This document shows, piece after piece, positions 10,646 through 41,522 of a stretch of 64,000 bases of DNA. Source of the DNA: [Mycobacterium] vasticus (GTDB lineage: Bacteria > Actinomycetota > Actinomycetes > Mycobacteriales > Mycobacteriaceae); NCBI RefSeq assembly GCF_020181595.1, contig NZ_CP084028.1, positions 3,235,889-3,299,888 of the forward strand, given 5' to 3'. Below the pieces are notes generated by a model. It did not search any database. It was not told the DNA's origin and saw only the letters and a program-made list of their open reading frames with translations. The translations under genes were made by a program, and so were the position numbers. Numbering within the stretch: position 1 is the first letter of the stretch; each line of letters starts with the position of its first letter.

Positions 10646-13009
10646 ATGGTTCATTCCCTCCCCCGCGTCGTCGTGGCCGCACCCGCCTCCGGACACGGCA
10701 AGACCACCGTGGCCGTCGGGTTGATGGCGGCCCTGGCCGCACGCGGACTGCGGGTCAGCGGGCACAAGGTCGGCCCGGACTACATCGATCCCGGCTATCA
10801 CGCGCTGGCGACCGGCCGTCCGGCCCGCAACCTGGATCCGTACCTGGTCGGCGCGGATCGGATCGTGCCGCTGCTGCTACAAGGCGCTGGAGGCGCCGAT
10901 TTGGTAAACATCGCCGTGATCGAAGGCGTGATGGGCCTTTTCGACGGCCGGCTCGGTTCCGACGGTGAGGCCTCCACCGCCCACGTCGCGGCACTGACCG
11001 CCAGTCCGGTGGTGTTGGTGGTCGACATCTCGCATGCCTCGCGGACCCACGCCGCGGTGGTAGCAGGCCTGGCCGGCTTCGACCCGGCGGTGCGGATCGC
11101 CGGGGTGGTGCTCAACAAGGCCGGCAGCGCTCGGCACGCCGACGAGGTGATCGCGGCATTGCGCCCCACCGGCATTCCGGTGCTCGGGGTGCTGCCCCGC
11201 CATGCCGATGTCGAGACGCCGTCGCGGCATCTCGGGTTGGTACCGGCCGCCGAACGCGACGAATCCGGCGCGGTGCTTCAGCGGTTGGCCCGGCTGATCG
11301 AGCAGCATGTGGACCTCGATGCGGTGGTGGCGGTGGCGCGGCAGGCGCCCGATCTGGTTGACACCGCGTGGGATCCGGGTGCGGAGGTGCGCGCTGCGTC
11401 GTCGGCCGGGCCGGTGGTGGCGGTCGCCGGTGGGCGGGCGTTCACGTTCGGCTACACCGAGACGTTCGAGCTGCTGCGCGCCGCGGGTTGCGAGGTGACC
11501 AGTTTCGATCCGCTCACCGACACCTGCCTGCCGGCCGGGACTGCCGGCATCTACCTGGGTGGCGGATTCCCCGAGGTGTACGCCGCTGAGCTGGCCGCCA
11601 ACACCGCATTGACTTCCGCGCTGCGGGCGGCGGTCGCGGCGGGGGTGCCGACGGTCGCCGAGTGCGGCGGCGTGGCCTACCTGTGCCGCACCGTCGGCGA
11701 CGCTGCCGGGGTGGGCGCACTGGCCGCGGACGCGGCGATGTCGCCGCGTCTGACCCTGGGTTATCGCACCGCCACCGCACCGGCCGACAACCTGTTGGCG
11801 CGAGCCGGCGATCAGGTTACCGGGCACGAATTCCACCGCACCCAAGTTACTTTCACAGGCCCGGTCGAGGCCGCCTGGCAGCTGCCGGGCGGGCCGGACG
11901 GTGTCGCGGGGCCGAGCCTGCACGCCTCGTACCTGCACACCCACTGGGCCGGCTACCCACGGCTGGCTCAGCGTTTCGCCGACGCGGTGCACGCCTACAC
12001 CGGCCCGGATCTGCAACATCACGGCGATGTCGAGGCCGGACCGCACCTCCTTGATTTCGCGGTGAACATCTACGCCGGCCCGCGTCCGGACTGGCTCGAT
12101 GCTGCGCTGCACGCCTCGCTCGACGACGCCGCCAGCTATCCGGACTCCTCGGCTGCTCGGGATGTTCTTGCCGCCCGGCACGGCCTCGCCGCCGCCGAGG
12201 TGCTGCCCACCGCGGGCGCCTCCGAGGCCTTCGATCTGGTGGCCCGGCTGCGAAAATGGCGGCGGCCGGTGGTGATCCACCCGCAGTACACCGGGCCGCA
12301 TGCCGCGCTGAACGCCGCCGGGCACACCGTCGACACACTGTTGTGCCGGCCGGACGACGGGTTCGCGCTGCACCCCGGCGAGGTTCCCGACGACGCCGAC
12401 CTCGTCGTCGTCGGCAACCCGACCAACCCCACCGGGGTCCTGCATCCGGCGCAGACACTGCTGCGGCTGCTGCGGCCCGGCCGGGTGGTGCTGGTCGACG
12501 AGGCGTTCCTCGACGCCATCCCGGGTGAGCCGGAAACCCTTTCCGGCCACCGGCATCCGGGCCTGTTGGTGAGCCGCAGCCTGACCAAGCACTGGTCGAT
12601 TCCGGGGGTGCGCGCCGGCTATCTGCTCGGCGACCCCGACCTGATCGCCGCTGCGGCCCGGCTGCAGATCCCATGGTCGGTGTCGACGCCGGCTTTGGCC
12701 GCCATGGTGTCCTGCTCGGATGAGCGGGCGTCGACCGAAAGCGATTGTCGGGCGCGACAATTGGCCTTGTGGAGCACTGAACTGAGCGACGAGCTCGCCG
12801 CCCGTGGCGTACCGTTCGTGGCGGGTCCCGCACCGTATCTGCTGGCCCGGGTCGGCGATGGCGTGCATGCGGCTTTGCGGGAGAACGGGATAGCGGTGCG
12901 GCGCTGCGACACGTTCCCGGGACTGGACGCCACCTGGGTGCGGATCGCGGTTCGTCCGCCCGAGCTGACCGCCCAGTTGCTGTCCGCCCTCGACCGGATA
13001 CTGCGGTGA
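10646..13009 (+). CDS. cobB: CobB-CobC fusion: cobyrinate a,c-diamide synthase and threonine-phosphate decarboxylase-like aminotransferase
   Basis: One open frame of 787 residues joins two enzymes. Residues 1-440 are CobB, the glutamine-dependent a,c-diamide synthase: P-loop VAAPASGHGKTTVAVG, EGVMGLFDGRLG, glutaminase cysteine in VAECGGVAYL, and the catalytic-histidine region YLHTHWAGYP. Residues about 450-787 are a class I PLP enzyme of the CobC/CobD type: HHGDVEAGPHLLDFAVNIYAGP, VVGNPTNPTGVLHP, VLVDEAFLD and the PLP lysine in SRSLTKHWSIPGVRAGY. That half would make the aminopropanol-phosphate arm from threonine phosphate. The ATG at 10646 is preferred over a TTG at 10631 that overlaps cobO. 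In M. tuberculosis the two proteins are encoded at separate loci. No stop or frameshift is visible at the junction. Confidence 0.93.
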   Translation: MVHSLPRVVVAAPASGHGKTTVAVGLMAALAARGLRVSGHKVGPDYIDPGYHALATGRPARNLDPYLVGADRIVPLLLQGAGGADLVNIAVIEGVMGLFDGRLGSDGEASTAHVAALTASPVVLVVDISHASRTHAAVVAGLAGFDPAVRIAGVVLNKAGSARHADEVIAALRPTGIPVLGVLPRHADVETPSRHLGLVPAAERDESGAVLQRLARLIEQHVDLDAVVAVARQAPDLVDTAWDPGAEVRAASSAGPVVAVAGGRAFTFGYTETFELLRAAGCEVTSFDPLTDTCLPAGTAGIYLGGGFPEVYAAELAANTALTSALRAAVAAGVPTVAECGGVAYLCRTVGDAAGVGALAADAAMSPRLTLGYRTATAPADNLLARAGDQVTGHEFHRTQVTFTGPVEAAWQLPGGPDGVAGPSLHASYLHTHWAGYPRLAQRFADAVHAYTGPDLQHHGDVEAGPHLLDFAVNIYAGPRPDWLDAALHASLDDAASYPDSSAARDVLAARHGLAAAEVLPTAGASEAFDLVARLRKWRRPVVIHPQYTGPHAALNAAGHTVDTLLCRPDDGFALHPGEVPDDADLVVVGNPTNPTGVLHPAQTLLRLLRPGRVVLVDEAFLDAIPGEPETLSGHRHPGLLVSRSLTKHWSIPGVRAGYLLGDPDLIAAAARLQIPWSVSTPALAAMVSCSDERASTESDCRARQLALWSTELSDELAARGVPFVAGPAPYLLARVGDGVHAALRENGIAVRRCDTFPGLDATWVRIAVRPPELTAQLLSALDRILR

Positions 13010-18685: not shown

Positions 18686-19422
18686 CAGTTCCGCCGCACC
18701 AGCAGAACGTCCATCACCCAGCCCGCGTCCACCTTCGCGGCACGGCGAGCGGCGACGATCTCGGCGGCTACGTCACCGACCCGGCCATGCACCAGCCGCT
18801 CCCCCGCCGCACCCAGGTTGGCGCCCCACCAGATGGTCCAGTCGGCCAGCTCGGTCAGGTCTAGGGATTCCGGGTTGAGCATCGCGACGATGTTGTCCTG
18901 GCCGGCGGCGACGGCCCCGGCCAGCCGGCGTCCGGTGGTGATGTGCACCGTACGGCCCACCTCGTGCAGCACGATCCGGTGCCGGGCCGCCAGCAGCTGT
19001 GGCGCGCTGATGCCGGGCAGCACGTCGTAATCCAGTTCCACGCCAAGGGCTTTAATCTGCTCGACGATGCGGATCGTCGAGTCGTACAGCGCCGGGTCGC
19101 CCCAGACCAGGAAGGCCGCGGTGCCGCCGCGGGTCCGCAGCACCTCGGCGTAGCGCTGCGCCCGGGCTGCATGCCAGTCGGCGACGGCACCGGCATAGCC
19201 GGGCTCAGTGAGCCCCGGGGAGCGATCGCGGGGTGGATCGACGACCGTGACGACAGGGGTCGAAGCCGCGTAGGTGTCGACGACGGATCGACGCAATGCC
19301 AGAAGGCTGTCGCCCGAGGACTTCTCGGATGCCAGCACGTAGTCGACGGACCGCAGCGCCTCGGCGACCTCCGCCGTGACATGTTGCGGCCCCATCCCGA
19401 CGCCGAGAATCCAAACCTTCAC
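18685..19422 (-). CDS. cobF: Precorrin-6A synthase (deacetylating)
   Basis: CobF methylates C1 of precorrin-5 and releases acetate, giving precorrin-6A in the aerobic pathway. The GTG at 19422 yields 245 residues starting VKVWILGVGMGPQHVTAEVAEAL, the family start. LVWGDPALYDSTIRIVEQI, YDVLPGISAPQLLAARHRI and the late DNIVAMLNPESLDLTEL / TIWWGANLG are also CobF-like. The longer open frame upstream lies inside cobN and was rejected. The GTG overlaps the cobN stop (GTGA). This gene is known to be missing from the M. tuberculosis complex, so its presence supports a non-tuberculous host and a complete pathway. Confidence 0.95.
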   Translation of the reverse strand: MKVWILGVGMGPQHVTAEVAEALRSVDYVLASEKSSGDSLLALRRSVVDTYAASTPVVTVVDPPRDRSPGLTEPGYAGAVADWHAARAQRYAEVLRTRGGTAAFLVWGDPALYDSTIRIVEQIKALGVELDYDVLPGISAPQLLAARHRIVLHEVGRTVHITTGRRLAGAVAAGQDNIVAMLNPESLDLTELADWTIWWGANLGAAGERLVHGRVGDVAAEIVAARRAAKVDAGWVMDVLLVRRN

Positions 19423-22400
19423 CGGTCCTCCAGATCCCCTTCCACGTCGAGGTAGGCCTGCTGCAGCGCCGCCAGGGTCTGCGGATCCGGCTCCGCCCAC
19501 AGACCCCGGTCGGCGGCCTCCTTGAGTCGCTCCACGATGCCCTGCAGCGCCCACGGATTGGACTTGTCCAGGAACTCGCGGGTGACCGGGTCGAGCACGT
19601 ACTCAGCGGCGAGCTTCTCATACATCCAGTCGTGCACCACCCCGGCGGTGGCGTCGAAACCGAACAGGTAGTCGACGGTCGCAGCCAGTTCGAACGCGCC
19701 CTTGTAGCCGTGCCGGCGCATCGCGGAGATCCAGCGCGGGTTGACCACCCGGGCCCGGAACACCCGGGCGGTCTCCTCGGCCAGCGTGCGGGTGCGGACG
19801 GCATCTGGTGACGTCGAGTCCCCCACATAGGCTTTCGGGTCGGCTCCGGACAATGCCCGCACGGTCGCGATCATGCCACCGTGGTAGACGAAATAGTCGT
19901 CGGAGTCGGCGATGTCGTGTTCGCGGGTGTCGATGTTCTTGGCGGCCACCTTGATCCGGCGGTAGTTGGTGCGCATGTCATCGGCCGCGGCGACGCCGTC
20001 CAGGCCGCGGCCGTAGGCGAACCCTCCCCAGGTGGTGTAGACCTCGGCCAGGTCCTTGTCGTCACGCCAGGTGCCGGATTCGATCAGCTGCAGGATGCCC
20101 GCCCCGTAGGAGCCCGGCGCCGAGCCGAAGACCCGGGTGGTGGCCCGGCGCAGGTCGCCGTGGGCGGCCTGATCCGCGCGGGCGTGCGCGGCCACGAAGT
20201 TCTGATCGTCGGGTTCGTCGAGGGCCGCCGCCATCTGCACGGCGTCGTCGAGCATGGTTACCACGTGCGGGAAGGCGTCCCGGAAGAATCCCGAAATCCG
20301 CACCGTCACATCGATTCTGGGGCGGCCGAGTTCCTCAGGTGAGATGACTGCCAGCCCAGACACCCGGCGGGACGCCTCGTCCCATTCCGGGCGCACGCCG
20401 AGCAGGGCCAGCACTTCGGCGACATCATCGCCGGAGGTTCGCATCGCCGAAGTGCCCCACACCGACAACCCCACCGACTCCGGGTAGCCGCCGGTGTCGT
20501 CGAGGTAGCGCCGCACCAGGGAGTCGGCCATCGCCTGCCCGGTCTGCCAGGCCAGCCGGGACGGCACCGCGCGCGGGTCGACGGTGTAGAAGTTGCGTCC
20601 GGTGGGCAGCACGTTGACCAGGCCGCGCAGCGGTGAGCCGGATGGGCCAGGCCGCACGAATCCGCCGGCCAGGGCGTGCAGCACCGAGTCCAGTTCGGCG
20701 GTGGTGCCGGCCAGCCGCGGGACCACCTCGGTGGCAGCGAATCTCAGCACCCGACATACCTCGGGGTCGGGATGCGCCGAATCGGCCACCACCGCATCCC
20801 AATCCGCCGCCTCCATGGTTTCGACCAGGTCCCGGGCGCGCTGCTCGATCTCATCGACCGCGACCACCGAAGCGTCGTCTTTCAGACCGAGCGCCGCCCG
20901 CAGTCCGGGCACCGCGTGGTCCACCCCGCCCCACACCTGCGGGGCCCGCAGGATCGCCAGCACCAGGTTCACCCGCTCCGGGCCGGCCGGGGCGCCACCC
21001 AAAACGTGCAGGCCGTCGCGGATCTGGGCGTCCTTGATCTCGCAGAGCCAGCCGTCGACGTGCAGCAGGAAGTCGTCGAACTCCTCATCCTCGGGCCGCT
21101 CGTCCAGACCCAGGTCGCGGTGCATCTCAGCGGCGCGCATCAGGTTCCAGATCTCGCCGCGGATCGCCGGCAGCTTGGCCGGGTCCATCGTCGCGATGTT
21201 GCCGTACTCGTCGAGGAGCTGCTCCAATCGGGCGATGTCGCCGTAGGACTCGGCGCGCGCCATCGGTGGGATCAGATGATCGATGATGGTGGCGTGCGCC
21301 CGGCGTTTGGCCTGGGCGCCCTCGCCGGGATCGTTGACCAGGAACGGGTAGATCAGCGGCAGGTCGGCGATCATGGCGTCGGTGGCGCAGCTCGCCGACA
21401 GGGCCGCGGTCTTGCCGGGCAGCCATTCCATCGATCCGTGCTTGCCCAGGTGGATCACCGCATGCGCGCCGAAACCATGTGCCAGCCAACGGTAAGCGGC
21501 CAGGTAGTGGTGACTCGGCGGCAGATCCGGGTCGTGGTAGATCGCCACCGGATTCTCCCCGAACCCCCGGGGCGGCTGGATCATCAACACGACGTTGCCG
21601 GATTGCAGTGCGGCCAAAACGATCTCACCGGCGTCGTTGACGAACAACCTGCCGGGCGCCGGGCCCCACGCCTGCGTCATCGCATCACGCAGGTCACCGG
21701 GAAGTTCCGCGGTCCACTCCGCGTACTGCTGTGCGCTCACTCGCACCTGCGCGCCGGCCAGCTGCGCCGCCGAGAGCCAGTCCTCGTCCTGGCCGCCGGC
21801 CTCGATCAGGGTGTGGATCAGACGATCCCCGGCCTCGGTTTCGTCGGCAACGCCCAGCACACCGAAGCCGTCCCCGACGTCGTAACCGGCCGCGGCCAGC
21901 CGGTGCAGCAGCCGCACCGCCGAGGCCGGGGTGTCCAGGCCGACGGCGTTGCCCACCCGGGAATGCTTGGTCGGATAGGCCGAGAGCACCAGCGCGAGCT
22001 TCTTCTCGGAGTTCGGGATATGACGCAGCACAGCGTGATTCACCACCACGCCGGCGACCCGGGCGCAGCGTTCGGCGTCGGCGGCGTAGTGCGGCAGCCC
22101 GTCGTCGTCGATCTCCTTGAAGGAGAACGGCACCGTGATGATCCGGCCGTCGAACTCCGGGATGGCGATCTGGGTGGCCGAATCTAGCGGGGTCACACCG
22201 TCGTCGTTGGCCTCCCAGTCCGCCCGCGACGAGGCCAGGCACAACCCCTGGAACACCGGGATATCCAGTGCGGCAACCCGTTCGATGTCCCACGCGCCGT
22301 CGTCGTCGCCGGCGCTCACGGTCGCGGTGGCATTCAGGGCCCCGCCGGCCGCCAGCATGCAGACCACTACCGCGTCCAGCGTGCCCAGCGCGTCGTAGAG

Positions 22401-23003
22401 CTCGTCACCGGCGTTGCGCAGCGACGCCGCGAAGATCGGCACCCCGACCGCCCGGCCGGTGGCGACCTCCACCCCATCAATGGCGTCGGCCAGCGCGTGC
22501 GCGAATCCCGCGTTGCCGCTGACCTCGTGCGCCCGGTAGTAGAGCACCCCGACCCGCACAGCGTCGGGAGCCCCGGAAGACTCCCGAGCCGCGTAACCCC
22601 ACTCCGGGATCACCGCCGGCTCGTCGAAACCCTCACCGGTGAGCAGCACCGTGTCGCAGAGGAATGCGTGCAGCTGAGCCAGGTTGGCCGGTCCCCCCTC
22701 GGCGAGGTAGGCGTGTGCCTGCGCGGCCAGCCCGATCGGAACCGTCGAACACTCCATCAACTCGGCGTTGGGCGATCGTTCGCCACCGAGCACCACCAGC
22801 GGCAGGCCGGTCGCGCGCAGCAGCTTCAGCTCGTCGGCGATCTCGGCCGAGGAGCCCAGGATGCGCAGCACCACCACGTCGACGCCGTCGAGCAGCGGCG
22901 CGATGTCGTGGCGCGCTGGGTTGCCGAGCCGGTAACCGGCACCGCTGGCCCGCGCCGACAACAGGTCGGTGTCGGAGGTGGAGAGCAGGGCGATACGCCG
23001 CAT
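19419..23003 (-). CDS. cobN: Aerobic cobaltochelatase large subunit CobN
   Basis: CobN is the large catalytic subunit that inserts cobalt into hydrogenobyrinate a,c-diamide, powered by an AAA+/VWA partner. The 1194-residue product from the ATG at 23003 has the same length as mycobacterial CobN. Visible conserved segments include VLMIQPPRGFGENPVAIYHDPDLPP, the HLGKHGSMEWLPGKTAALS metal-site region, and GSAPGSYGAGILQLIESGTW. An in-frame extension upstream to 23084 runs into the riboswitch and is unlikely. The partner is probably the AAA/VWA protein at 8069. The gene leads the cobN-cobF-cobQ-cobK operon. Confidence 0.97.
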   Translation of the reverse strand: MRRIALLSTSDTDLLSARASGAGYRLGNPARHDIAPLLDGVDVVVLRILGSSAEIADELKLLRATGLPLVVLGGERSPNAELMECSTVPIGLAAQAHAYLAEGGPANLAQLHAFLCDTVLLTGEGFDEPAVIPEWGYAARESSGAPDAVRVGVLYYRAHEVSGNAGFAHALADAIDGVEVATGRAVGVPIFAASLRNAGDELYDALGTLDAVVVCMLAAGGALNATATVSAGDDDGAWDIERVAALDIPVFQGLCLASSRADWEANDDGVTPLDSATQIAIPEFDGRIITVPFSFKEIDDDGLPHYAADAERCARVAGVVVNHAVLRHIPNSEKKLALVLSAYPTKHSRVGNAVGLDTPASAVRLLHRLAAAGYDVGDGFGVLGVADETEAGDRLIHTLIEAGGQDEDWLSAAQLAGAQVRVSAQQYAEWTAELPGDLRDAMTQAWGPAPGRLFVNDAGEIVLAALQSGNVVLMIQPPRGFGENPVAIYHDPDLPPSHHYLAAYRWLAHGFGAHAVIHLGKHGSMEWLPGKTAALSASCATDAMIADLPLIYPFLVNDPGEGAQAKRRAHATIIDHLIPPMARAESYGDIARLEQLLDEYGNIATMDPAKLPAIRGEIWNLMRAAEMHRDLGLDERPEDEEFDDFLLHVDGWLCEIKDAQIRDGLHVLGGAPAGPERVNLVLAILRAPQVWGGVDHAVPGLRAALGLKDDASVVAVDEIEQRARDLVETMEAADWDAVVADSAHPDPEVCRVLRFAATEVVPRLAGTTAELDSVLHALAGGFVRPGPSGSPLRGLVNVLPTGRNFYTVDPRAVPSRLAWQTGQAMADSLVRRYLDDTGGYPESVGLSVWGTSAMRTSGDDVAEVLALLGVRPEWDEASRRVSGLAVISPEELGRPRIDVTVRISGFFRDAFPHVVTMLDDAVQMAAALDEPDDQNFVAAHARADQAAHGDLRRATTRVFGSAPGSYGAGILQLIESGTWRDDKDLAEVYTTWGGFAYGRGLDGVAAADDMRTNYRRIKVAAKNIDTREHDIADSDDYFVYHGGMIATVRALSGADPKAYVGDSTSPDAVRTRTLAEETARVFRARVVNPRWISAMRRHGYKGAFELAATVDYLFGFDATAGVVHDWMYEKLAAEYVLDPVTREFLDKSNPWALQGIVERLKEAADRGLWAEPDPQTLAALQQAYLDVEGDLEDR

Positions 23004-23009
23004 GGTCAG

Positions 23010-23165
23010 GGTTCCTCCCCGGGGTTCACGCCCCGCATAGTCGGACGCCCCGCGGCCAGTATCTGGCTCAGGGCGCTGACGCACCCCTCACAGTGGCGGA
23101 ACCGCGCCGGAATTGAAGTAGATACGCACCGGACTTCCTGACGCCACGAGACGGCGGCCAGCCTA
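23010..23165 (-). promoter_or_regulatory. Cobalamin riboswitch upstream of cobN
   Basis: On the reverse strand the B12-box core covers roughly 23139 to 23088: GGAAGTCCGGTGCG, a stretched loop, AATTCCGGCGCGG, then CCGCCACTGTG. About ten extra bases sit between CCGGTGCG and AATTCCGG compared with the usual compact loop. Near the gene a hairpin, CGGGGCG then GTGAAC then CCCCG, is followed at once by GGGAGG, the cobN ribosome-binding site. This suggests control of translation by hiding that site. Boundaries are approximate. Confidence 0.9.
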
Positions 23166-23182
23166 GCCCAGCGCGGCATGCA

Positions 23183-23383
23183 ACAATGTCGCCGGTAAGG
23201 CGATGACGACAGTGAGGAAGCCGGTGCGAATCCGGCGCGGTCCCGCCACTGTCATCGGGGAGTGACCCTCATCAGCCACGGCCCGCCGCCTGTGGGGCTG
23301 GAAGGCGAGGCGAACGGTGATCCGAAAGCCAGGAGACTCACGTCATCGCGTCCTGCGAACCGGGGCGGTGTACCCCGAGGAAG
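23183..23383 (+). promoter_or_regulatory. Cobalamin riboswitch upstream of the BtuF-BtuC-BtuD/FhuF operon
   Basis: The core at about 23214-23252 is canonical: GAGGAAGCCGGTGCGAATCC then GGCGCGGTCCCGCCACTGTC, followed by AAAGCCAGGAGACTCACGTC near 23326-23345. A terminal hairpin GGGGCGGTGTACCCC (23363-23377) sits directly before GAGGAAG (23377-23383). The 5' end lies within about 20 bases of the 5' end of the divergent cobN riboswitch. Confidence 0.95.
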
Positions 23384-23396
23384 CTGATGCACGCCT

Positions 23397-24578
23397 ATGT
23401 CCCGTGCGTTGCGGGTAGTTCTTGCGCTGACCACCGCGCTGCTGGCCGGCTGTTCGGCCGAGCGCGCCACCGTCACCGACGACGCGCGTCCCGGTTGCGT
23501 CACCGAGTTCGATCCGGCCGCCGACTACTTCCCGGACAAGTCGACCCTGTCCGAGGCCACCAACTTCCGCCTCGAATACCACCGCAGCTACCAGGTCCTC
23601 ACCGTCAACCGCCCCTACCTCGGCGGCAAGCCGGTGTCGTATGTGCTGGTGCGCTGCGGCGCCCCGGCCCCCGAGCTGACCGGCGAGCTCGCCCACGCCC
23701 AGCAGGTCAGCGTCCCCGTGCACAGCCTGTATTCGGGCTCCACCACCCATCTGGCGATGATCACCGAACTCGGCCGGGCCGACGTGGTCACCGGCGTGGC
23801 CAGTCCTCCCGCGGTCGCCGACCCGCAGATCCGCAGCCGCATCGATGCCGGCGCAATCGTCGGCTACGCCCCAGGCGGGCAGGTCAACATCGAGACCGTG
23901 CTGCATGCCGGCCCCGACGTGCTGGTCACCCAGGGCATGGACGATCCCGGTTATCCCAAGTTGCGCGAGGCCGGAATCCCGGTGGTCGCCGACGCCGAAT
24001 GGCTGGAGCCCACCCCGCTGGGCCGCGCCGAATGGATCAAAGTGTTTGCGGCATTGACGGGTACCGAACGCCAGGCCGAGCAGACCTACCGCACCATCCG
24101 TGACGGCTACCACGCGCTGAGCGCCCGGGCCGGCGCGGCCAAGTCGGTCGACGTATTGGTGGGCACCATGTATTCGGGCAACTGGTCGATGCCCACCGGT
24201 ACCAGCTACGCTGGCCGGCTGGTCGCCGACGCCGGCGGGACCTACCCCTGGCTGAGCGACACCGGCGCGCAGAACCGGCAGCTGAACTTCGAATCGGTCT
24301 ACGCCCGGGCCGGACACGCACCGCTGTGGCTGGTGACCGAGGACTGGAAAGCCTTGAGCGACGCGGTTTCCCAGGACAGCCGCTACGGCGAGCTCGCCGC
24401 GATCCGCAGCGGTCAGGTGTGGTCGGGCACCAAAGCGGTCGACGAGAACGGCCGCAACACCTATTGGGAGCGCGGCACGGCGCGGCCGGATCTGCTGCTC
24501 GGCGACCTGGTTGCGATCCTGCATCCCGAGTTGGTACCCGGCCATGACTTCGCGTTCTACCGTCAGGTCCCGCGATGA
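23397..24578 (+). CDS. ABC transporter substrate-binding lipoprotein (BtuF/FecB-like)
   Basis: The 393-residue product begins with a lipoprotein signal peptide, MSRALRVVLALTTALLAGCS, with lipobox LAGC at about residues 16-19. Class III periplasmic-binding domains follow (LAMITELGRADVVTGVASPP near 115-140; VNIETVLHAGPDVLVTQGM; GIPVVADAEWLEPTPLGRAEWIKVFAALTG), the pattern of corrinoid and ferric-siderophore binders. The riboswitch in front indicates corrinoid. The ATG at 23397 is the only in-frame start after a TGA at 23385. The ribosome-binding site GAGGAAG is unusually far from it (13 bases) and closer to an out-of-frame ATG at 23387. The stop overlaps the permease start. Confidence 0.92.
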   Translation: MSRALRVVLALTTALLAGCSAERATVTDDARPGCVTEFDPAADYFPDKSTLSEATNFRLEYHRSYQVLTVNRPYLGGKPVSYVLVRCGAPAPELTGELAHAQQVSVPVHSLYSGSTTHLAMITELGRADVVTGVASPPAVADPQIRSRIDAGAIVGYAPGGQVNIETVLHAGPDVLVTQGMDDPGYPKLREAGIPVVADAEWLEPTPLGRAEWIKVFAALTGTERQAEQTYRTIRDGYHALSARAGAAKSVDVLVGTMYSGNWSMPTGTSYAGRLVADAGGTYPWLSDTGAQNRQLNFESVYARAGHAPLWLVTEDWKALSDAVSQDSRYGELAAIRSGQVWSGTKAVDENGRNTYWERGTARPDLLLGDLVAILHPELVPGHDFAFYRQVPR

Positions 24579-25609
24579 GGGCCCGCACCCCGCTGGTGCT
24601 GACGGGCCTGGCCGCCGCGGTCTTGGTATTGGCGCTGCTGGGTCTGGCGCTCGGTCCGGTGCGGGTGCCGCTGGCCGACACCGTGCGAGTACTGCTCGGC
24701 GCCGACGCCTCCGACCCGCGCTGGCAGGTGATCGTGTCGAACATGCGGCTGCCCCGGGTGCTCACCGCGTTGGCCGCCGGTGCCGCGCTCGGGGTCTCCG
24801 GGCTGCAGCTGCAGACCCTGTTCCGCAACACCCTCGCCGACCCCTACATCCTCGGGGTCAGTTCCGGCGCCAGCCTCGGTGTGGCGCTGGTGGTGCTGCT
24901 TGGCGGTGCCGCGGGTTTCAGCACCGGCATGGCCGGGGCCGGCCGCGCCGGGGCGGTATTCGCGGCCGCGCTGGGAGCCGCGGCGATGCTGACGCTGGTG
25001 CTGACGCTGTCGCGCTGGACCCGCTCGGCGGCCACCCTGCTGCTGATCGGGGTGATGCTGGGCGCGGCCAGCACCGCACTGGTGAGCCTGGCGATGGTCT
25101 ACTCCGACCCGCAGCGGGTGCAGCAGTTTCTGCTGTGGGGCCTGGGCAGCTTCGCCGGAACCGGTTGGGGCGACCTGCGACTGCTGCTGCCGCTGGTCGG
25201 CATCGGGCTGGCCGCCGCCGCTGTGACGATCCGGCCGCTCAACGCCCTGCTGCTCGGCGAGAGCTACGCAGCCACCATGGGTATCAACGTCCGGCGGGCC
25301 CGGATGGTCACGGTCGGATCGGCATCACTGCTGGCGGGTGTGACGACGGCGTTCTGCGGGCCGATCGCGTTCCTCGGCCTGGTGGTGCCGCACGTGGCCC
25401 GCATCGCCGTCGGCACCTCCGATCACCGTGTGGTGCTGCCCGCGGTGACATTGCTCGGTGCCGTCGCCGCACTGGGCTGCGGGATCGTCAGCCAGGTGCC
25501 GGGCAGCAATCTGGTGATTCCGGTCAACGCGGTCACCGCGCTGGTCGGGGCGCCGGTGGTGATCGCCGTTCTGCTGCGGGCCCGGCGCGGATCGGGGATG
25601 CCGTCATGA
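24575..25609 (+). CDS. ABC transporter permease (BtuC/FecD family)
   Basis: The 344-residue product has about ten membrane segments and the FecCD family motifs: RLPRVLTALAAGAALGVSGLQLQTLFRNTLADPYILGVSSGASLGVALVV-type N-terminal half split across 725-900 bases of the region, LLWGLGSF near residue 185, and the coupling-helix region AFCGPIAFLGLVVPHVARI near 265. It would form the membrane channel for the substrate delivered by the lipoprotein. The ATG overlaps the lipoprotein stop (ATGA), and its own stop overlaps the ATPase gene in the same way. Confidence 0.94.
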   Translation: MRARTPLVLTGLAAAVLVLALLGLALGPVRVPLADTVRVLLGADASDPRWQVIVSNMRLPRVLTALAAGAALGVSGLQLQTLFRNTLADPYILGVSSGASLGVALVVLLGGAAGFSTGMAGAGRAGAVFAAALGAAAMLTLVLTLSRWTRSAATLLLIGVMLGAASTALVSLAMVYSDPQRVQQFLLWGLGSFAGTGWGDLRLLLPLVGIGLAAAAVTIRPLNALLLGESYAATMGINVRRARMVTVGSASLLAGVTTAFCGPIAFLGLVVPHVARIAVGTSDHRVVLPAVTLLGAVAALGCGIVSQVPGSNLVIPVNAVTALVGAPVVIAVLLRARRGSGMPS

Positions 25610-27339
25610 ACCCGACAGTCGTGGCACCGGCTGTCCAACTGGCCGGCCTGACCATCGGCTACCGCCACCGCCGGCGCGCCACCACCGTGGCCACCGGGCT
25701 GGACGCGCAGGCCCGCCGCGGCGAGCTCACCGTGCTGATCGGCCCCAACGGCGCCGGCAAGTCCACCCTGATCCGCACCCTGGCCGGGCTGCAGCCCGCG
25801 CTCGGCGGCCGGGTTCTGCTGGACGGCACCGACCTCACCGAGCTGCCCCGTGACGAACTGGCCCGCCGGGTCGGGGTGGTGCTGACCGAACGGATCGATC
25901 CCGGCCTGCTGTCGGCTCGGGAACTGGTGTCACTGGGCCGAATTCCGCACCTGGGCCTGGCAGCCCGGCTACGTCCCGCCGACGAGAAGATCGTGGACTG
26001 GGCGCTGGCGGCCACCGGCGCCGGACACCTGGCGTCACGGCCCGCCGCGGAACTGTCCGACGGCGAGTGCCAGCGGGTGCTGACCGCACGCGCCCTGGCG
26101 CAACAACCGGGCCTGCTGATCCTCGACGAGCCGACCGCGTTCCTAGACGTGTCCTCGCGGGCCGGGCTGTTCGGGTTGCTGCGCACGCTCGCCCGCGAAC
26201 AGCAGCTGGCGGTGGTGTTGAGTACCCACGACCTGGAATTGGCGTTGCGGGTGGCCGATCGGGTGTGGCTACTGGATCCGGACGGCACCCTGGCCGATAC
26301 GGTCGGCGAGGAGCTGATGCTGTCCGGTCGCATCGGTGCGATGTTCGACACCGACACCCTGCACTTCGATGCGGCCAGCGGCATGTTCGCGTTCAGCACC
26401 GCCGGCGGTGCCGGCCGCGCCGCCCGGATCGACGCCGGCGAACAACTGCGGGCGGTCCTGACCCGGGTGCTGTCCCGGGAGGGCTGGGAGGTCGGTGAGC
26501 CGGCCGAGATCATCGTCACCGCAACCGATACCGACCTTGTCACGGTGCGGTCCGCGACATCGACCGCCGTGACCCCGCTGCGAGATCTGCCGCAGCTGCT
26601 ACGCGGTGTGCCCGCCGGCCCGCAGCGCTGCGTGCCGCAGGATCAGGTGGTGTCGTCACTGGCGCAGTTGTCCACTGTCAGCTCGTATTTCGCGGTGTCC
26701 ACCGGTCCGATACCCGACGGCGACTGGCGCCCGGTGGCCCAACTCTACAACGACCGGGAGCTGCTGGCCGCGGCAGTCGCACGCGTCGGGGAACGCATCG
26801 GCGCGCCGGATCACCGGGTCGCGGCGTCCACCTTCCACCTCGGTTTCGCCGCCCGGCTGTGGTCGATCGGCCTGGGCGGGCTCGCCGAGCACGCGCTGCT
26901 GGTGGACCTGTCCCCCGATCAGCTCTGCTACGCCGAGTCCGGCGGCACGCTGCGGCTGCACCTGCCGCATCCGGTGGCCTGGCAGGGCACGGGCTGCGAA
27001 CCGCTGCTGGCCGACATCATCCTGCGTGACCATCTGGCACCGCTGGCCGCCGCCATACGACGGCTCGGCCCGATCTCGCATCGACTGCTGCTCGGCAATG
27101 CCTCCGCTGCGGTTCTCGGTGCCGCCCGCGCGCTGCGCAGCGCATCCGGCTGGGATCTGGCCCGCCGGTTATGCGACGACGAACGGCTCTCCGACACAAT
27201 CTGTTTCAACGAAGCCGGCACGGACTACCGCCGCGCCACCTGCTGCCTGTTCTACCGCACGCCCGACGGTGGGTTGTGCGGCGACTGCGCGCTGACCCAC
27301 AAACCCGAACTCACGCAGCAAAGGAAGGGAAACACATGA
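25606..27339 (+). CDS. ABC transporter ATPase fused to a FhuF-like iron-sulfur reductase domain
   Basis: From the ATG at 25606 the product is 577 residues. Residues 1-260 are a FecE/BtuD-type ATPase: Walker A GPNGAGKST (46-54), signature LSDGE (150-154), Walker B LLILDEP (170-176), and H-loop histidine 208. Residues about 350-565 resemble the ferric-siderophore reductase FhuF and end with its signature C-C-x10-C-x2-C at 546, 547, 558 and 561, which binds [2Fe-2S] in FhuF. Residues 265-345 form a linking region. The fusion would place a reductase on the cytoplasmic face of the importer. In-frame sequence upstream to 24511 belongs to the permease region and was rejected. The start overlaps the permease stop. 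Confidence 0.9.
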   Translation: MNPTVVAPAVQLAGLTIGYRHRRRATTVATGLDAQARRGELTVLIGPNGAGKSTLIRTLAGLQPALGGRVLLDGTDLTELPRDELARRVGVVLTERIDPGLLSARELVSLGRIPHLGLAARLRPADEKIVDWALAATGAGHLASRPAAELSDGECQRVLTARALAQQPGLLILDEPTAFLDVSSRAGLFGLLRTLAREQQLAVVLSTHDLELALRVADRVWLLDPDGTLADTVGEELMLSGRIGAMFDTDTLHFDAASGMFAFSTAGGAGRAARIDAGEQLRAVLTRVLSREGWEVGEPAEIIVTATDTDLVTVRSATSTAVTPLRDLPQLLRGVPAGPQRCVPQDQVVSSLAQLSTVSSYFAVSTGPIPDGDWRPVAQLYNDRELLAAAVARVGERIGAPDHRVAASTFHLGFAARLWSIGLGGLAEHALLVDLSPDQLCYAESGGTLRLHLPHPVAWQGTGCEPLLADIILRDHLAPLAAAIRRLGPISHRLLLGNASAAVLGAARALRSASGWDLARRLCDDERLSDTICFNEAGTDYRRATCCLFYRTPDGGLCGDCALTHKPELTQQRKGNT

Positions 27340-27917
27340 CCGAGAACACCACCATCGAGATCGTCGCCGATCCCCCGGTCCTCGACACCGAAGACCGCGG
27401 CCGTGAACAGCTGTGGCCGTTGCCCACCGACCAGCAGAGCCTGCTGGATCTGCTGCACCTGTGTTTCGACGAGTACTGGGACGAGATCTGGTTCGGCATC
27501 ATCATGCAGGGCGCCGCCTGGGAGGTGGCAGCGCCCAACGCACCGCGCAAGATCGCGATGCTCGACGGTTATGCCACCATCGATTTCGGTCGCTGGCACT
27601 TCCACCTGTGCATCGGCAAGCACCGCGCCAGCGGCTCCGAGCTGGGCCGCATTCGCCGCTGCACCCGCGCTGAGCTGTACCGCAGAATCGGCAAGGACGG
27701 CAACGCGATGTCCTGGGGCGTGCGGCTCTACAACGGGCGCGACGAGCAGATGATGACGATCATGCTGCCGAACCCGTTCCTGACCAACGACCAGCAGATG
27801 CGCGAGGAGCCCGAGTGGGGCCAGCTCGAGCTATGGGACAAGCTCCGCAACAAATATCTGGGCCTGGGACCGGACCCGTTGGACCGCAACGGGAATCGAA
27901 TCCGCTGCGGCGGCTGA
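27336..27917 (+). CDS. Unrecognised 193-residue protein, last gene of the riboswitch-led importer operon
   Basis: The product is soluble, acidic at the N-terminus, and rich in tryptophan and histidine. Notable segments are FDEYWDEIWFGIIMQGAAWE near residues 45-65, DFGRWHFHLCIGKHR near 85-100, RRCTRAELYRRIG near 107-120 and MLPNPFLTNDQQMREEPEWG near 145-165. The HFHLC and GKH residues could bind a metal or heme, but that is only inference. No signal peptide or membrane segment is seen. The ATG at 27336 overlaps the ATPase stop, and AAGGAAGG lies upstream, so it belongs to the cobalamin-riboswitch operon. I do not recognise the family. Confidence 0.85.
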   Translation: MTENTTIEIVADPPVLDTEDRGREQLWPLPTDQQSLLDLLHLCFDEYWDEIWFGIIMQGAAWEVAAPNAPRKIAMLDGYATIDFGRWHFHLCIGKHRASGSELGRIRRCTRAELYRRIGKDGNAMSWGVRLYNGRDEQMMTIMLPNPFLTNDQQMREEPEWGQLELWDKLRNKYLGLGPDPLDRNGNRIRCGG

Positions 27918-33789: not shown

Positions 33790-35514
33790 CTAGTTTCCGT
33801 CGGCCGGCCAGGTTTTCGGAATCATCGGGCTGATGGCGTCGCCACCGAAGCCGTCCTCGGCCAGCGCGGCCAGCCCGGCCGGCTGCGCGGTGCCCACCCG
33901 CCGGGCGGCACCGGCGAAGCCCAGCGATCCGGCACCCCGACCTGAAGGCACCGGATCCGGCGCCAGGTCCTGATCCAAGTCCATGTACTCGTGCCCGCGC
34001 CCGCGCATCCCGACCTTCGTCCGGCGTCGGTGCCGTTGCGACGCACCCTCTTCTGCGGGCTCAACCAGATCGGCCCCGGCCCCGGCCGGCTTGGAGGCCG
34101 TCTTCTTGCGCGCGCTGGTCCCCGACGCCCGCCGGGCACCCATGTCCAGTCCGCCGACCATGTACATGTAGGCCGGCATCGTCACCGACGGCGGTCCGGC
34201 CGGTGTCGGCGGCGGTGCACCCGGCGGCGGAGTGGCAGCCGCGGCCGGTGCGGGTGCCGGGGCGGGAGCCGGGGCCGGGGCGGGCGCGGGAGCTGGTGCC
34301 GGGGCCGGCGGCTGGGCCATTGCCAACCCGGGTGCCGGCGGAGGCGGGGGCGGCGGTACCGCGGCGACCGTCGCATGATGCGCCAGCGCCCCGATACCCA
34401 GGCCGCCGAGCACTCCCGCCGGAGCCAGCACAGCCGAACCGGCCAGCAACGGCAGAAGCGCTGGTAGCAGGGCGGTCTGGGTGATCAGGTAGTTCAGCGC
34501 CTGGATGGTGTTGCCGATCGTGGACCCGACGATCTCCACCATCGCCATCGGGATGACCAGGCCCAGGCCCTGGGGATTGAACAGCGCGGTGTACATGATC
34601 GCGATCAGGTCGTCGACGATCACGATGCTGGTGAACGCGAAGTAGGAGCCCGGGTCCAGCGGCACCGAGAAGATGTAGGCCAGGTTGGCCGGGTTGAGGT
34701 AGCTCAGCGGGTTGCCGGTCCACGCCAGCCACGATCCGGGCACCCCGGGTGGCGGCAGCATTGACGATCCGCCCTGCAGGCTCGCGAAGAACTTGGCCAG
34801 CGGGTCAGCGATCCCGGTGTAGCCGATCTGATTGAAAAAATCCTGCAGCTGGGTGTAGAGCGGGTACTGACCGCTGTCGGGATAAGGGGGATGGGGGACA
34901 AGACTTTCGAGCCATTTTGCGAAGTCGGTGAACCATTGCGGCGGCTGTGGCGCGGTCGTGTCCGCGCTGCCCGGAGTCTTGAGAACCATTGGAGCCGGGT
35001 CGGTTTGCGGCACGGAAGCCACCGACGCCGTCGCAGTCGCCTCATAAACGGTCATCACGGTGGCGGCCTGTGCCCACATCCGGGCATAGTCCGCCTCGTT
35101 CAGCGCTATCGGAATGGTGTTGACGCCAAAGAAGTTCGTGCCCACCAGCACCGTGTGCACAGCGTGGTTGGCGGCCAGCTCCGCCATAGTCGGCATCGCC
35201 GCCAGGGCGCTGGTATAGGCCACCGCCGCGGTCCGCTGGGCGGCGGCCGTCGCCATCGCGTCGGCACCGGCACGCAGCAGCCACGCCAGATAAGGACCGT
35301 TGGCGGTCACGAACGCCTCCGCGGACGGGCCCTGCCAGGCCCCGGACCCGACGGCGCCCAGCACTCCGGTGAGCTCATCGGCGGTGGAGTTGTACTCGGC
35401 AGCCAACGCGATCCACGCTGCCGCGGAGGCTTGCAGCGGGCCGGCGCCGGGGCCGGCGGACAACAGGGACGAATGGATTTCAGGCGGCGACGCCACCCAG
35501 ACAGGCGCAGACAA
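33790..35514 (-). CDS. PPE family protein, PPE2-like (PPE-PPW type)
   Basis: The 574-residue product has an N-terminal PPE domain ([16 protein letters not shown] near residue 8; [23 protein letters not shown] near 125), a hydrophobic middle, a proline-alanine tract (repeated AP pairs near 415-435), then a basic stretch ([21 protein letters not shown]). The C-terminus carries GFGG and P-x-x-P-x-x-W (PMIPKTW), the PPE-PPW marks. The basic segment and C-terminus resemble M. tuberculosis PPE2. PPE proteins are usually exported by type VII secretion, but no PE partner is adjacent. A TTG start at 35514 follows GAGAGAG and a cobalamin riboswitch. A paralogue lies directly upstream. Confidence 0.93.
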
Positions 35515-35519
35515 TGGGA

Positions 35520-35705
35520 ATCAGCTCTCTCGGGGTACACCGCCCCGGGTCGCAGGATGCGACGATGTGAGTGTCCTGACTCTCGGATCAACGCTCGCCT
35601 CGCCTTCCAACTCCGTTAAGAGCCGTGGCTTTTGAGGGTCGCTCCCCGATCACAGTGGCGGGACCGTGCCGGATTCACACCGGCTTCCTGCACCATCGTT
35701 GCCGT
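35520..35705 (-). promoter_or_regulatory. Cobalamin riboswitch between the two PPE genes
   Basis: Read on the reverse strand, GGAAGCCGGTGTGAATCCGG then CACGGTCCCGCCACTGTG (about 35690-35651) is a canonical B12 box. Downstream, CGGGGCGGTGTACCCCG (about 35524-35540) forms a hairpin directly before GAGAGAG, the site used by the following TTG. The sequence from the GTCGCATCCTGCG region to the hairpin is nearly the same as in the BtuF riboswitch. It starts within about 20 bases of the upstream PPE stop, so it may act inside a two-gene transcript. Confidence 0.93.
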
Positions 35706-35724
35706 ACTGGCGCAGTATCGCACG

Positions 35725-37314
35725 TTAGGTCATCTGTTGGCGATACTGCGGCGCCCATGTGCCGGGCGTCATAGGAGTGGTGACACCGCCGCCGAACCCG
35801 TCCCCGGACAGCGCGGTCAGGCCGCTCGGTGAGACGGAATCCTCCAGGTCCATGTACTCGTGGCCGCGGCCGAGCATGTCGTGCTTGGCCTTTCGTCGCC
35901 GGCGGACCTTGGCCTTCTCTTCGGCTACGGCAGCCTCCGCCGGCGCCGCGGCCGCCTCGGGTTCGGGGGCTTTGCGCCGACGGGCACTGGTGCCCGCGGC
36001 CCGGCGGGCCTGCTGGCTCAGGCCCGCGACCAGGTACATGTAGGCCAGGCTGTCGCCCGGTGACAGCGGCGGGGCGGGTGGCGGCGGGGGTGCAGCGGGC
36101 GCAGGCGGAGTCGCGGCCGGCACCGGGGCAGGCGCGGGAGCGGGAGCGGGGGCAGGCACCGGAGCCGGCGGCGTGGCGGCCACCGTCAACCCAGCGAACG
36201 GCGGGGGCACCGGGGGCACCGCAACCACCGGCACGGCATGCAGGGCGGCCAGGCCCGACAGTCCCGCCAACCCGGCCAGCGGCGTCACCGCCAGCGGCAA
36301 CGCGGCCGTCAACATCGGCAGCATGACCGGGATCAGCACGAGGGCCTGTTCCAGCAGCGTCTTGAGCAGGGCGATCACGTCGGTGATGATCGTCCCGATG
36401 GCCTCCACCGCGGTGAACAGCAGCGTCGAGGCGATGGTGCCGGGATTACCGGAGGCGAACGCCGCGGCCAGGTCCGCTCCGATGAACGCGAACGTCTGCG
36501 ACAGGTAGGCGGCGAACGAACCGAAGTCCATCGGGTAACCAAGCGCGAACGCGATGTTGTACGGGCTCAGGAAGCTCAACGGATTCCCGGTGATCGTGAG
36601 CCAGGGGTCGAACCCGCCGAAGATCGACTGGAAGTAGGGATTGGCGGCCAGCTGGTTGATCATCGGCTGCAGCACGTTGTTGTAGAAGTCGGTGTAGCCG
36701 CTGTTCTGCAGCCAGTCCATGATCTCGTTCTGCCGATCCGGCGGCAGCTGCGACTGGCTGGCATCGGCGGAGCCGGCCTTGGCGATCTGCGGCGCCACCG
36801 CGGTCTGCGGCGTCGACGCCACCGCTGCACCTGCCACCGACTGATAGGTGGTCATGACGGTCGCGGCCTGCAGCCACATCCGGCCGTAGTCGGCCTCGTT
36901 GAGCGCGATCGGAATGGTGTTGACGCCGAAGAAGTTCGTGCCCACCAGCACCGCGTGGGTGGCGTGATTGGCCACCAGTTCGGCCATGGTGGGCATCGCC
37001 GCGAGTGCGGCGCTGTAAGCGGCGGCCGCGGTCTGCTGCTGGCCGGCGGTCACCGCGCTGGCGGCACCGGCCTGCACCAGCCAGGCCAGATACGGCACAT
37101 TCGCCGCCACATAGGCCTCGGCGGACGGGCCCTGCCACGCGCCGGCCTGCACCGCGCCCAGCAGCGCGGTCAGGTCATGAGCGATCTCGGCGTACTCGGC
37201 ACTCAACGTCGTCCACGCCGCCGCCGAGGCCAGCAACGGACCGGGGCCCGGGCCGGTGGACAGCAGAGTGGAATGGACTTCCGGAGGTGACGCGATCCAG
37301 ATCGGCGTGGTCAC
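35725..37314 (-). CDS. PPE family protein, PPE2-like (PPE-PPW type)
   Basis: The 529-residue product starts at a GTG at 37314 and has the PPE signature [19 protein letters not shown] near residue 8, then [23 protein letters not shown] near 125. It also has a hydrophobic central block ([21 protein letters not shown]) that closely resembles M. tuberculosis PPE2, an AP-repeat tract near 395-420, a basic [20 protein letters not shown] segment, GFGG and PMTPGTW (PPE-PPW). In M. tuberculosis, PPE2 is also behind a B12 riboswitch and next to cob genes. This copy is closer to PPE2 than its downstream paralogue is, judged by eye. Function is unknown; a link to corrinoid or cobalt handling is an inference. 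Confidence 0.94.
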
Positions 37315-37319
37315 GGTCG

Positions 37320-37475
37320 CCAGCTCTCTCGGGGTGCTCCGCCCCGAATCGGAGGTTGCGACGACGTGAGTGTCTGGCTCTCGGGTGGGTTCACTACCCG
37401 ATCACAGTGGCGGCACCGCGCCGGAATTGAACCGGCTTCCTACGTCGTCGTCGCCTTGCCTGCGAATTGTCGCAC
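37320..37475 (-). promoter_or_regulatory. Cobalamin riboswitch upstream of the first PPE gene
   Basis: On the reverse strand GGAAGCCGGTTCAATTCCGG then CGCGGTGCCGCCACTGTG (about 37440-37402) matches the B12 box. Two departures are seen: TTCAATT replaces the usual TGNGAAT loop, and GGTGCCGCC replaces GGTCCCGCC. A hairpin CGGGGCGGAGCACCCCG directly precedes GAGAGAG, the ribosome-binding site of the GTG at 37314. The aptamer is slightly atypical, but the overall layout is clear. Confidence 0.88.
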
Positions 37476-37498
37476 GCTGAGGCTCACCGGCACCCGCC

Positions 37499-39961: not shown

Positions 39962-40086
39962 AGCGGTCATGAGTGCCAGCGCTAAGCCCCGGCTTGCTGG
40001 CCGGCAACCCTCCAACCGCGGTGGGGTGCCCCGGGTGATTGACCGGGTTGAGTAGCCACCACGGCTACGCGGCAAGCGCGGGTCCG
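39962..40086 (+). promoter_or_regulatory. SAM-IV riboswitch upstream of metC-metX
   Basis: The segment has GGTCATGAGTGCCAGCG at 39965-39981, GGCTTGCTGGCCGGCAACCC near 39991-40010, CCGCGGTGGGGTGCCCCGGG near 40016-40035, then a GTGATTGACC that can close the GGTCA stem, and a downstream GGCAAGCGCGGGTCCGCC. This order matches the SAM-IV class, known from actinobacteria in front of sulfur-assimilation and methionine genes. With high S-adenosylmethionine it should reduce metC-metX expression. It lies in the 393-base gap between icd2 and metC. Boundaries are approximate. Confidence 0.9.
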
Positions 40087-40214: not shown

Positions 40215-41522
40215 ATGACCGCCGGTAATAACTGGTCGTTCGAGACCAAGCAGATCCACGTCGGCCACGCCGGAGACCCCGAGACCGGGGCCCGGGCACT
40301 GCCGATCTACCAGACCACCTCGTATCTTTTCAGCGACACCGACGAGGCGGCCGCCCGCTTCGCGCTGGCCGAGCCGGGCAACATCTACACCCGACTGACC
40401 AACCCGACCAGCGCGGTCATCGAGGAGCGCATCGCCGCCCTGGAGGGCGGTGTGGGGGCGACGCTGCTGTCCTCGGGACAGTCCGCCAGCACGTTCGCGA
40501 TCTTCAACCTGGCCGGTGCCGGCGACCACATCGTGGCCAGCCCGCGGCTGTACGGCGGCACCTACAACCTGTTCCGCTACTCGCTGCCCAAGCTGGGAAT
40601 CGAGGTCAGCTTCGTCGAGGACCCCGATGACCTGGAGTCCTGGCGGGCGGCGGTGCAGCCGAACACCAAGGCGTTCTACGCCGAGAGCATCTCCAACCCG
40701 AAGATCGACCTGCTGGACACCCCGGGAGTGTCCGCGGTGGCCCACGAGAACGGGGTGCCGCTGATCGTCGACAACACGATCGCAACCCCGTACCTGATCC
40801 AGCCGATCAGCCAGGGTGCCGACATCGTCGTGCACTCGGCCACCAAGTACCTGGGCGGGCACGGCACCGCGATCGCCGGCGTGATCGTCGACGGCGGCAA
40901 CTTCGACTGGACCCAGGGCCGCCATCCGAGCTTCACCACTCCCGATCCCAGCTACAACGGCCTGGTCTACGCCGACCTGGGTGCGCCGGCGTACGCGATC
41001 AAGATCCGCGCCCAACTGATGCGCGACTACGGATCGGTGGCCTCGCCGTTCAACGCGTTTTTGATCGCCCAGGGCCTGGAGACGCTGAGCCTGCGGGTGG
41101 AGCGCCACGTCTCCAACGCCCAGCGGGTCGCGGAGTTCCTGGAGGCCCGCGACGACGTGCTGAGCGTCAACTACGCCGGGCTGCCCAGCTCGCCGTGGTA
41201 CCAGCGCGCACAGCAGCTGGCCCCCAAGGGCGTCGGCGGTGTGCTGTCGTTCGAGGTGGCCGGCGGTATCGAGGCCGGAAAAGCCTTCGTCAACGCGTTG
41301 AAGCTGCACAGCCACGTCGCCAACATCGGCGATGTGCGCTCCCTGGTTATCCACCCGGCCTCCACCACGCACAGTCAGCTCTCCGGAGACGACCTGCTGT
41401 CCACCGGTGTCACCCCGGGGCTGGTCCGGCTGGCGGTAGGTATCGAGGGGATCGACGACATCCTGGCCGATCTCGAACTCGGATTCGCCGCGGCGGCCGC
41501 ACAGCTCGCGGCGGCGAACTGA
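40215..41522 (+). CDS. metC: O-acetylhomoserine sulfhydrylase
   Basis: This PLP enzyme of the Cys/Met metabolism family makes homocysteine from O-acetylhomoserine and sulfide. The 435-residue product has [31 protein letters not shown] at the N-terminus, [25 protein letters not shown], and the PLP lysine 211 in [11 protein letters not shown]. The C-terminal [15 protein letters not shown] is typical. The naming follows M. tuberculosis Rv3340; metY or metZ are used elsewhere. The ATG at 40215 comes after a run of seven T and only a weak ribosome-binding site (AGAAAG). metX follows after 13 bases. Confidence 0.94.

Follow-up and report, generated by a model that had tools for sequence, protein, structure and literature searches.

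The closest described counterparts of the system reported here are the BtuCD-F vitamin B12 importer of Escherichia coli and the FhuF/FSR family of ferric-siderophore reductases, represented by E. coli FhuF and by FchR. Elements of both are brought together in an operon found in a 64,000-nucleotide stretch of [Mycobacterium] vasticus DNA (contig NZ_CP084028.1, positions 3,235,889 to 3,299,888 of the forward strand); the whole stretch is called the window, and coordinates are given within it. The third gene of this operon (25606-27339, + strand) encodes an ABC ATPase fused to a FhuF-type domain, and a cobalamin riboswitch precedes the operon. Like BtuCD-F, the window system combines a binding protein, a FecCD permease and an ATPase (PF01497, PF01032 and PF00005 in one operon), and its permease scores best against BtuC; unlike BtuCD-F, it has its ATPase fused to FhuF and a DUF7676 protein as partner. 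With the FhuF/FSR reductases it shares the C-terminal CC-x10-C-x2-C, the FhuF_C family and a weak match to the structure 7qp5, whereas the fusion to an importer ATPase, the B12 control and scores under the TIGR03951 and PRK10647 cut-offs set it apart.

To our knowledge, BtuM and MMACHC (CblC) are unrelated to the window proteins and contain no Fe-S cluster. They likewise link cobalamin chemistry to import, their decyanation activity being coupled to B12 uptake (accessible parts of PMC12713380 and PMC3603451). Among mycobacterial systems, the siderophore importer IrtAB is likewise an ABC importer with a fused reductase domain, but with an exporter fold, a flavin (FAD) domain, an iron cargo and an N-terminal fusion (PMC10246721, in part). 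MSMEG_4558-4560 of M. smegmatis form a predicted BtuFCD-type corrinoid importer like that of the window; the comparison is by description only, and the portions of the descriptions consulted mention no FhuF domain (PMC8088520, PMC12713380). According to the same portions, homologues or analogues of BtuFCD are predicted in some mycobacteria, their function being unproven, and both BtuFCD-like function and other corrinoid carriers are rated unknown or uncertain in mycobacteria (PMC8088520, PMC12713380). FhuF has 0 mentions in PMC12713380. A literature search, with most subscription papers outside its scope, gave no description of an ATPase-FhuF fusion in a B12 context, including in the available parts of PMC7689651 and PMC4531530, and no paper describing this fusion when it was directed at DUF7676.

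The ATPase-FhuF fusion and its operon

The frame at 25606-27339 translates to 577 amino acids (aa) with zero internal stops and is laid out as an ABC ATPase, a linker of about 77 residues and a FhuF-type domain. The ATPase domain occupies residues 1-245 (25606-26340, +; PF00005, 97.6 bits, with Pfam ABC_tran at residues 32-178). The linker, at about residues 269-345 (26410-26640, +), matched no Pfam family and is mostly gone in P0092 and P0100, variants of 463-476 aa. The remaining part (26641-27339, +) is a FhuF-like domain with a predicted [2Fe-2S] cluster. Pfam FhuF_C was matched at residues 543-563 of the fusion with 34.2 bits against a cut-off of 20.5 (PF11575, 35.9 bits on the isolated piece), and this was the one FhuF_C match in the window genome, which consists of a single contig of 4.55 Mb and has Mycolicibacter and kin as nearest named relatives. 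The C-terminal motif reads TCCLFYRTPDGGLCGDCAL, which corresponds to CC-x10-C-x2-C, a spacing that the accessible part of PMC11965169 also gives for FhuF-type reductases.

The Pfam model of FhuF proper, PF06276, scored 20.3 bits on the window protein against a cut-off of 25.2; it was above this cut-off in the relatives P0046 (26.0 bits) and P0050 (28.1 bits), below it in P0102 and L147, and unmatched in L117. When a profile of the FhuF part was compared with solved structures, the top match was FhuF itself (7qp5), weak at E = 0.022. The ratio of nonsynonymous to synonymous substitution rates (dN/dS) of the FhuF core, measured against three relatives, was 0.27, 0.33 and 0.36, with 0.13-0.17 for the ATPase and 0.31-0.53 for the linker.

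The operon runs in the order lipoprotein, FecCD permease, ATPase-FhuF fusion and DUF7676 protein, with 4-base ATGA overlaps at all three gene junctions (24575, 25606 and 27336). The cobalamin riboswitch (23169-23359, +; RF00174, 92.8 bits, gathering threshold 31.5) ends 37 bases 5' of the binding-protein start at 23397. The substrate-binding lipoprotein, in a BtuF-like position (23397-24578, +; PF01497, 72.3 bits), has a LAGC lipobox, and its Cys 19, 34 and 87 are invariant in an alignment of 15 sequences (A3). It is followed by the BtuC-like FecCD-type permease (24575-25609, +; PF01032, 253 bits) and, after the fusion gene, by the DUF7676 protein of 193 aa (27336-27917, +; PF24724, 234.6 bits). 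A preliminary description of the window had reported an ATPase-FhuF fusion with the C-C-x10-C-x2-C motif in an importer operon under a B12 riboswitch, and all of these elements were recovered.

Recurrence of the fusion and of the riboswitch

In order to examine the association across genomes, named genomes were searched with the FhuF part, which gave 302 relatives; 80 of these were retained. Twenty-nine fusion loci (L002-L030) from Mycolicibacter, Mycobacterium, Mycolicibacillus and Dietzia were analyzed together. Binding protein, permease and ATPase were located by tblastn in 29/29, and together with FhuF they stood in the window order. The ATPase and FhuF parts were in frame in all 29 and in 5 further loci picked as fused, and the motif was present in 34/34, for L002-L030 partly by construction, as the search patterns span it. 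The sharing of one frame in 34 loci, the motif in all of them and the FhuF core dN/dS of 0.27-0.36 confirmed that the fusion is a real feature and no chance product. A DUF7676 gene came next in 26 of the 29 loci, the others being L022, L023 and L028. Within the family sample, the full fusion was found in 7 of 121 genomes, namely the window's, G099 (L003), G072 (L026), G058, G009, G091 and G111.

Riboswitches were counted from Rfam matches only, since regular expressions yield both chance matches and misses. A cobalamin riboswitch preceded the binding-protein gene in 24/29 of L002-L030 (6/9, 8/10 and 8/8 in successive batches, plus L030 and L016) and in 5/5 further fused loci (L113-L116 and L148). 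Iron control was sought as well: no IdeR-like box above chance was present in 35 upstream regions, where the best candidates had 6-10 mismatches out of 19, within the range of 60 shuffles, and the best IdeR/DmdR-box match in the window had 8/19 mismatches. The preliminary description had proposed a search for the fusion-riboswitch association and had named, as the finding that would speak against it, fusion homologues tied to iron regulators and not to B12 riboswitches; what was found is the riboswitch at 24 of 29 loci and an IdeR-like box above shuffles at 0/35, so that this objection was not borne out.

Split operons and operons lacking FhuF

In three genomes (L117-L119; G051, G084 and G098) the ATPase ends and FhuF follows in a separate frame (218 aa in L117, 215 aa in L118), then DUF7676, each operon being placed behind a cobalamin riboswitch of 42-83 bits. 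The genus of these genomes is probably Rhodococcus, because the DUF7676 start of G111, which has the same genus label, equals that of P0147 of Rhodococcus coprophilus. Split operons also occur at L147 and L149, which belong to a distant family of the class; L148 of that family has the fusion, its spacer being longer. Thus separate FhuF proteins sit between ATPase and DUF7676 in the Rhodococcus-like genomes and in the distant family. All five split loci have the CC-x10-C-x2-C motif, and four of them (L117-L119 and L147) have a riboswitch, whereas the fifth, L149, with an operon that is incomplete in the stretch available, has none. Next to the split operons of L117 (11362-14328), L118 (10664-13665) and L119 (10982-15242), on the other strand, a second FecCD-ATPase pair was observed.

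For comparison, the nearest FhuF-less operons (L120, L122, L123, L124, L128, L129 and L130) had a cobalamin riboswitch in 0/7 cases. The count was likewise 0/11 for stand-alone FhuF loci (L125, L126 and nine others), 11 of 54 having been scanned.

Phylogeny of the FhuF domain

In a 44-row FhuF tree the window domain clusters with the fused rows. Two stand-alone FhuFs from two g10 genomes (L125 and L126) nest within a clade of fused rows and lie at most 2 kb from bluB (213 and 212 bits; cut-off 150). At L125 (7200-10381) a rhodanese gene and a cobW-family gene stand between FhuF and bluB; the corresponding stretch of L126 is 4980-7565, and Rfam gave no cobalamin riboswitch at either locus. Whether fused or split, the FhuF rows of the distant family come together in a single group with good support, away from the remaining operon rows, and therefore fusion or fission occurred more than once. 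A single ancestral fusion without later change was ruled out by the tree, which requires the fused label to change 4 times and the split label 3 times. Fission, new fusion and horizontal transfer give indistinguishable patterns in this sequence tree. In ATPase and permease trees built by a quick method, the FhuF-less rows fell mostly outside the fused rows, L146 of the distant family excepted, and in the permease tree five FhuF-less rows stood beside the distant-family rows.

Cargo of the importer

To approach the cargo, B12 synthesis genes were surveyed in the genomes that have the operon. TP-methylase matches were counted in 28 genomes, all but G810 having FhuF in the operon; they numbered 7-10 in 26/28 and 3 in two. 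CbiC and CobN were searched in 30 handles (two genomes entered twice, L019 left out). Each was present in 28/30 and both were unmatched in the two genomes with 3 methylase matches, the draft assemblies of L020 (Mycobacterium shimoidei) and L022 (Mycolicibacter engbaekii). These two genomes retain the in-frame fusion with its motif, and they have B12-binding domains in frames of the size of methionine synthase and methylmalonyl-CoA mutase, which these frames may well encode. L020 retains the cobalamin riboswitch. In L022 Rfam found none, and the 172 bases between cobB and the binding-protein gene are too short for the usual riboswitch leader. The retention of the fusion in genomes with CbiC and CobN unmatched favours corrinoid over cobalt import, as such cells need a corrinoid importer and would have less evident use for a cobalt importer.

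The NicO cobalt/nickel permease was unmatched in the window genome and in 11 of 19 other genomes; of the 8/20 genomes in which it was found, two gave nothing better than weak matches. Searched by itself, the binding protein matched no PDB sequence up to E 0.01. With its profile, the matches to siderophore, heme and B12 binders were weak and overlapping, so that the scores left the cargo undecided.

The occurrence of the riboswitch across genera, the equal gene order of the split operons and the retention of the fusion in the two genomes lacking CbiC and CobN matches bear out the earlier suggestion of corrinoid import, and on these sequence data the operon likely imports corrinoids.

Distribution of DUF7676

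In the sampled genomes DUF7676 was found in 1/296 at the level of the phylum (the window genome), 12/394 of the class (11 above cut-off), 8/397 of the order and 25/198 of the genus. FhuF_C was present in 126/198 genomes of the genus sample; therefore FhuF alone is no marker of this system. When both lists were read together, 19 of the 25 genus-sample genomes had DUF7676 no more than 1 kb from a FhuF_C match. In 6/25 it was away from FhuF_C, and in 4 of these (L152-L155) the fusion was not found nearby. DUF7676 had no match among PDB sequences up to E 10 or in NCBIfam up to E 5.

Apart from FhuF, DUF7676 was still observed near B12 riboswitches: in L154 (2440-4424) near one beside a PPE gene (detected by regular expression only, as L152-L159 were scanned by this means alone), in L151 (6342-6839) as a fragment behind one, and in L146 (9073-9890) upstream of a riboswitch-led transporter. 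At L146 a second FecCD-ATPase pair lies behind a partial 34-bit riboswitch match. A 411 aa metagenomic protein, P0082, has FhuF_C and DUF7676 in a single chain, as if both could fuse.

Neighbouring genes in the window

The gene for CobN, the large subunit of cobaltochelatase (19419-23084, -; TIGR02257, 1083.7 bits, exceeding the cut-off of 822), is divergent from the importer operon and has its own cobalamin riboswitch (23037-23163, -; RF00174, 41.1 bits). Over L002-L030, cobN adjoins and diverges from the operon in 16/29 loci. These two riboswitches (23037-23359), one before cobN and one before the importer, are back to back on opposite strands, 5 bases apart, and in L009 and L014 the two divergent matches overlap; therefore both promoters are probably in or near each other's aptamer DNA. 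A CobO/BtuR-type corrinoid adenosyltransferase, a possible downstream user of reduced corrinoid, is encoded at 10027-10641 (+; PF02572, 196.9 bits). The frame at 10631-13009 (+) joins CbiA, GATase_3 and aminotransferase domains and looks like a CobB/CobQ-like enzyme fused to a CobC/CobD-like enzyme.

Furthermore, each of two PPE-PPW genes (33790-37486, -) has a cobalamin riboswitch of its own in front (35549-35732 and 37346-37486), an arrangement that resembles ppe2 of M. tuberculosis. Four B12 riboswitches are thus present inside 14.5 kb. A SAM-IV riboswitch (39965-40084, +) precedes a pyridoxal phosphate enzyme of cysteine/methionine metabolism (40215-41522).

Discussion

We propose, with a probability of about 0.58, that the operon encodes a BtuFCD-like corrinoid importer in which the [2Fe-2S] FhuF domain borne by the ATPase reduces Co(III) corrinoid to Co(II) at the exit. 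Scarcity of adenosylcobalamin would turn the operon on. The lipoprotein would capture the corrinoid and the FecCD dimer would move it across the membrane, while the ATPase dimer would bear two FhuF-type [2Fe-2S] domains on the cytoplasmic side, at its C-termini. At these domains a Co(III) corrinoid such as hydroxocobalamin would be reduced to Co(II) on arrival, a change that would loosen the upper ligand and keep the vitamin inside the cell. The Co(II) corrinoid would then be passed in a usable form to the adenosyltransferase CobO. Substrate identity, the redox reaction, the electron donor and the hand-over to CobO are the parts of this proposal that we infer.

The Co(III)/Co(II) potential of aquocobalamin is within reach of a FhuF-type cluster, and adenosyltransferases act on Co(II) corrinoids, which they render four-coordinate. 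According to the accessible parts of the sources, the formal potential of E. coli FhuF is -0.36 V at pH 7.4 (PMC8068687) and the Co(II)/Co(I) couple lies at -450 mV (PMC4083273). A FhuF-type cluster could therefore take Co(III) to Co(II), and the step from Co(II) to Co(I) would be hard. Taken together with the use of Co(II) by adenosyltransferases and the precedent of IrtA, the potentials argue for reduction of Co(III) to Co(II) on entry. The suggestion in the preliminary description that Co(III) corrinoids may be reduced for adenosylation is consistent with the FhuF family and the published potentials, and corrinoid reduction is our best single guess for the fused domain.

Several observations weigh against this proposal. 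Five fusion loci (L022, L023, L025, L028 and L029) had no cobalamin riboswitch by Rfam; three of them, L023, L028 and L029, cluster together in the FhuF tree with a support of 93/87 that is not starred. The window system is under the NCBIfam BtuC/BtuD cut-offs (190.9 vs 334, 105.3 vs 281 and 155.6 vs 537 bits), the first pair being that of the permease with its top model, BtuC PRK03784. The top NCBIfam model of the ATPase is that of an F420-0 transporter (184.9 bits, cut-off 372.4) and not BtuD, and the fusion stays under the siderophore-iron reductase models (TIGR03951, 28.8 vs 63.85 bits; PRK10647, 17.6 vs 300 bits). The binding-protein profile matched iron-siderophore binders in PDB (best E 3.6e-6) ahead of BtuF (E 0.008). 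An apparently full set of B12 methylases was present in 26/28 genomes, and the FhuF rows of the two distant groups are not one clade. Finally, L146 has riboswitch, transporter and DUF7676 but the FhuF motif nowhere in 19 kb, and the second FecCD-ATPase pairs of L117-L119 (29-43% identity) have their own cobalamin riboswitch and no second FhuF match. FhuF is therefore dispensable for B12-controlled import as such: FhuF with this transporter accompanies B12 control, and B12 control can do without FhuF.

Cobalt uptake is often under B12 riboswitches, and the operon could instead import Co(III) in chelated form, as a 'cobaltophore' that may be a cobalt-loaded siderophore, from which FhuF would reductively free Co(II) for CobN. 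The cobN gene beside and divergent from 16/29 loci, the known FhuF chemistry of metal release from siderophores, the NicO permease unmatched in the window genome and 11/19 others, and the full-looking methylase set of 26/28 genomes are in line with such a role. However, the fusion is kept in two genomes without CobN and CbiC matches, in L020 together with its riboswitch, and NicO is present in 8/20 genomes, two weakly, and we consider cobalt-chelate import unlikely. 

Another explanation, to which we give somewhat less credence, is that FhuF serves as a redox or Fe-S sensor which regulates the ATPase and couples corrinoid import to redox or iron state, the cargo not being reduced. C-terminal regulatory domains are carried by the ABC ATPases MetN and ModC, and FhuF is likewise at the ATPase C-terminus; dN/dS points to faster evolution of its core (0.27-0.36) than of the ATPase (0.13-0.17), and L146 does without it. 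Against a sensor of this kind stand the free-standing FhuF of the split operons and the two genomes in which FhuF is near bluB and the FhuF-less remainder of the operon is not beside it.

A ferric-siderophore importer that acquired its B12 riboswitch by accident, the alternative of the preliminary description, is improbable: iron is the best-known context of the FhuF and FecCD/Peripla_BP_2 families, the binding-protein profile is closest to siderophore binders and five fusion loci miss the riboswitch, but 24/29 loci have it, the IdeR-box matches in 35 upstream regions are in the range of shuffles, and cob genes adjoin the operon in the window.

A wider form of the corrinoid-reduction proposal, held tentatively and at slightly less than even odds, is that FhuF branches act as reductases on Co(III) corrinoids where the transporter opens into the cytoplasm, were fused or split repeatedly, and have in DUF7676 a dedicated corrinoid-handling partner.

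As importer and putative reductase are joined here in one riboswitch-controlled polypeptide, two mycobacterial questions, how corrinoids are taken up and which enzyme first reduces them after import, become addressable via one protein. If the proposal is true, FhuF chemistry would reach from iron to cobalt, and DUF7676 would be given its first functional setting.

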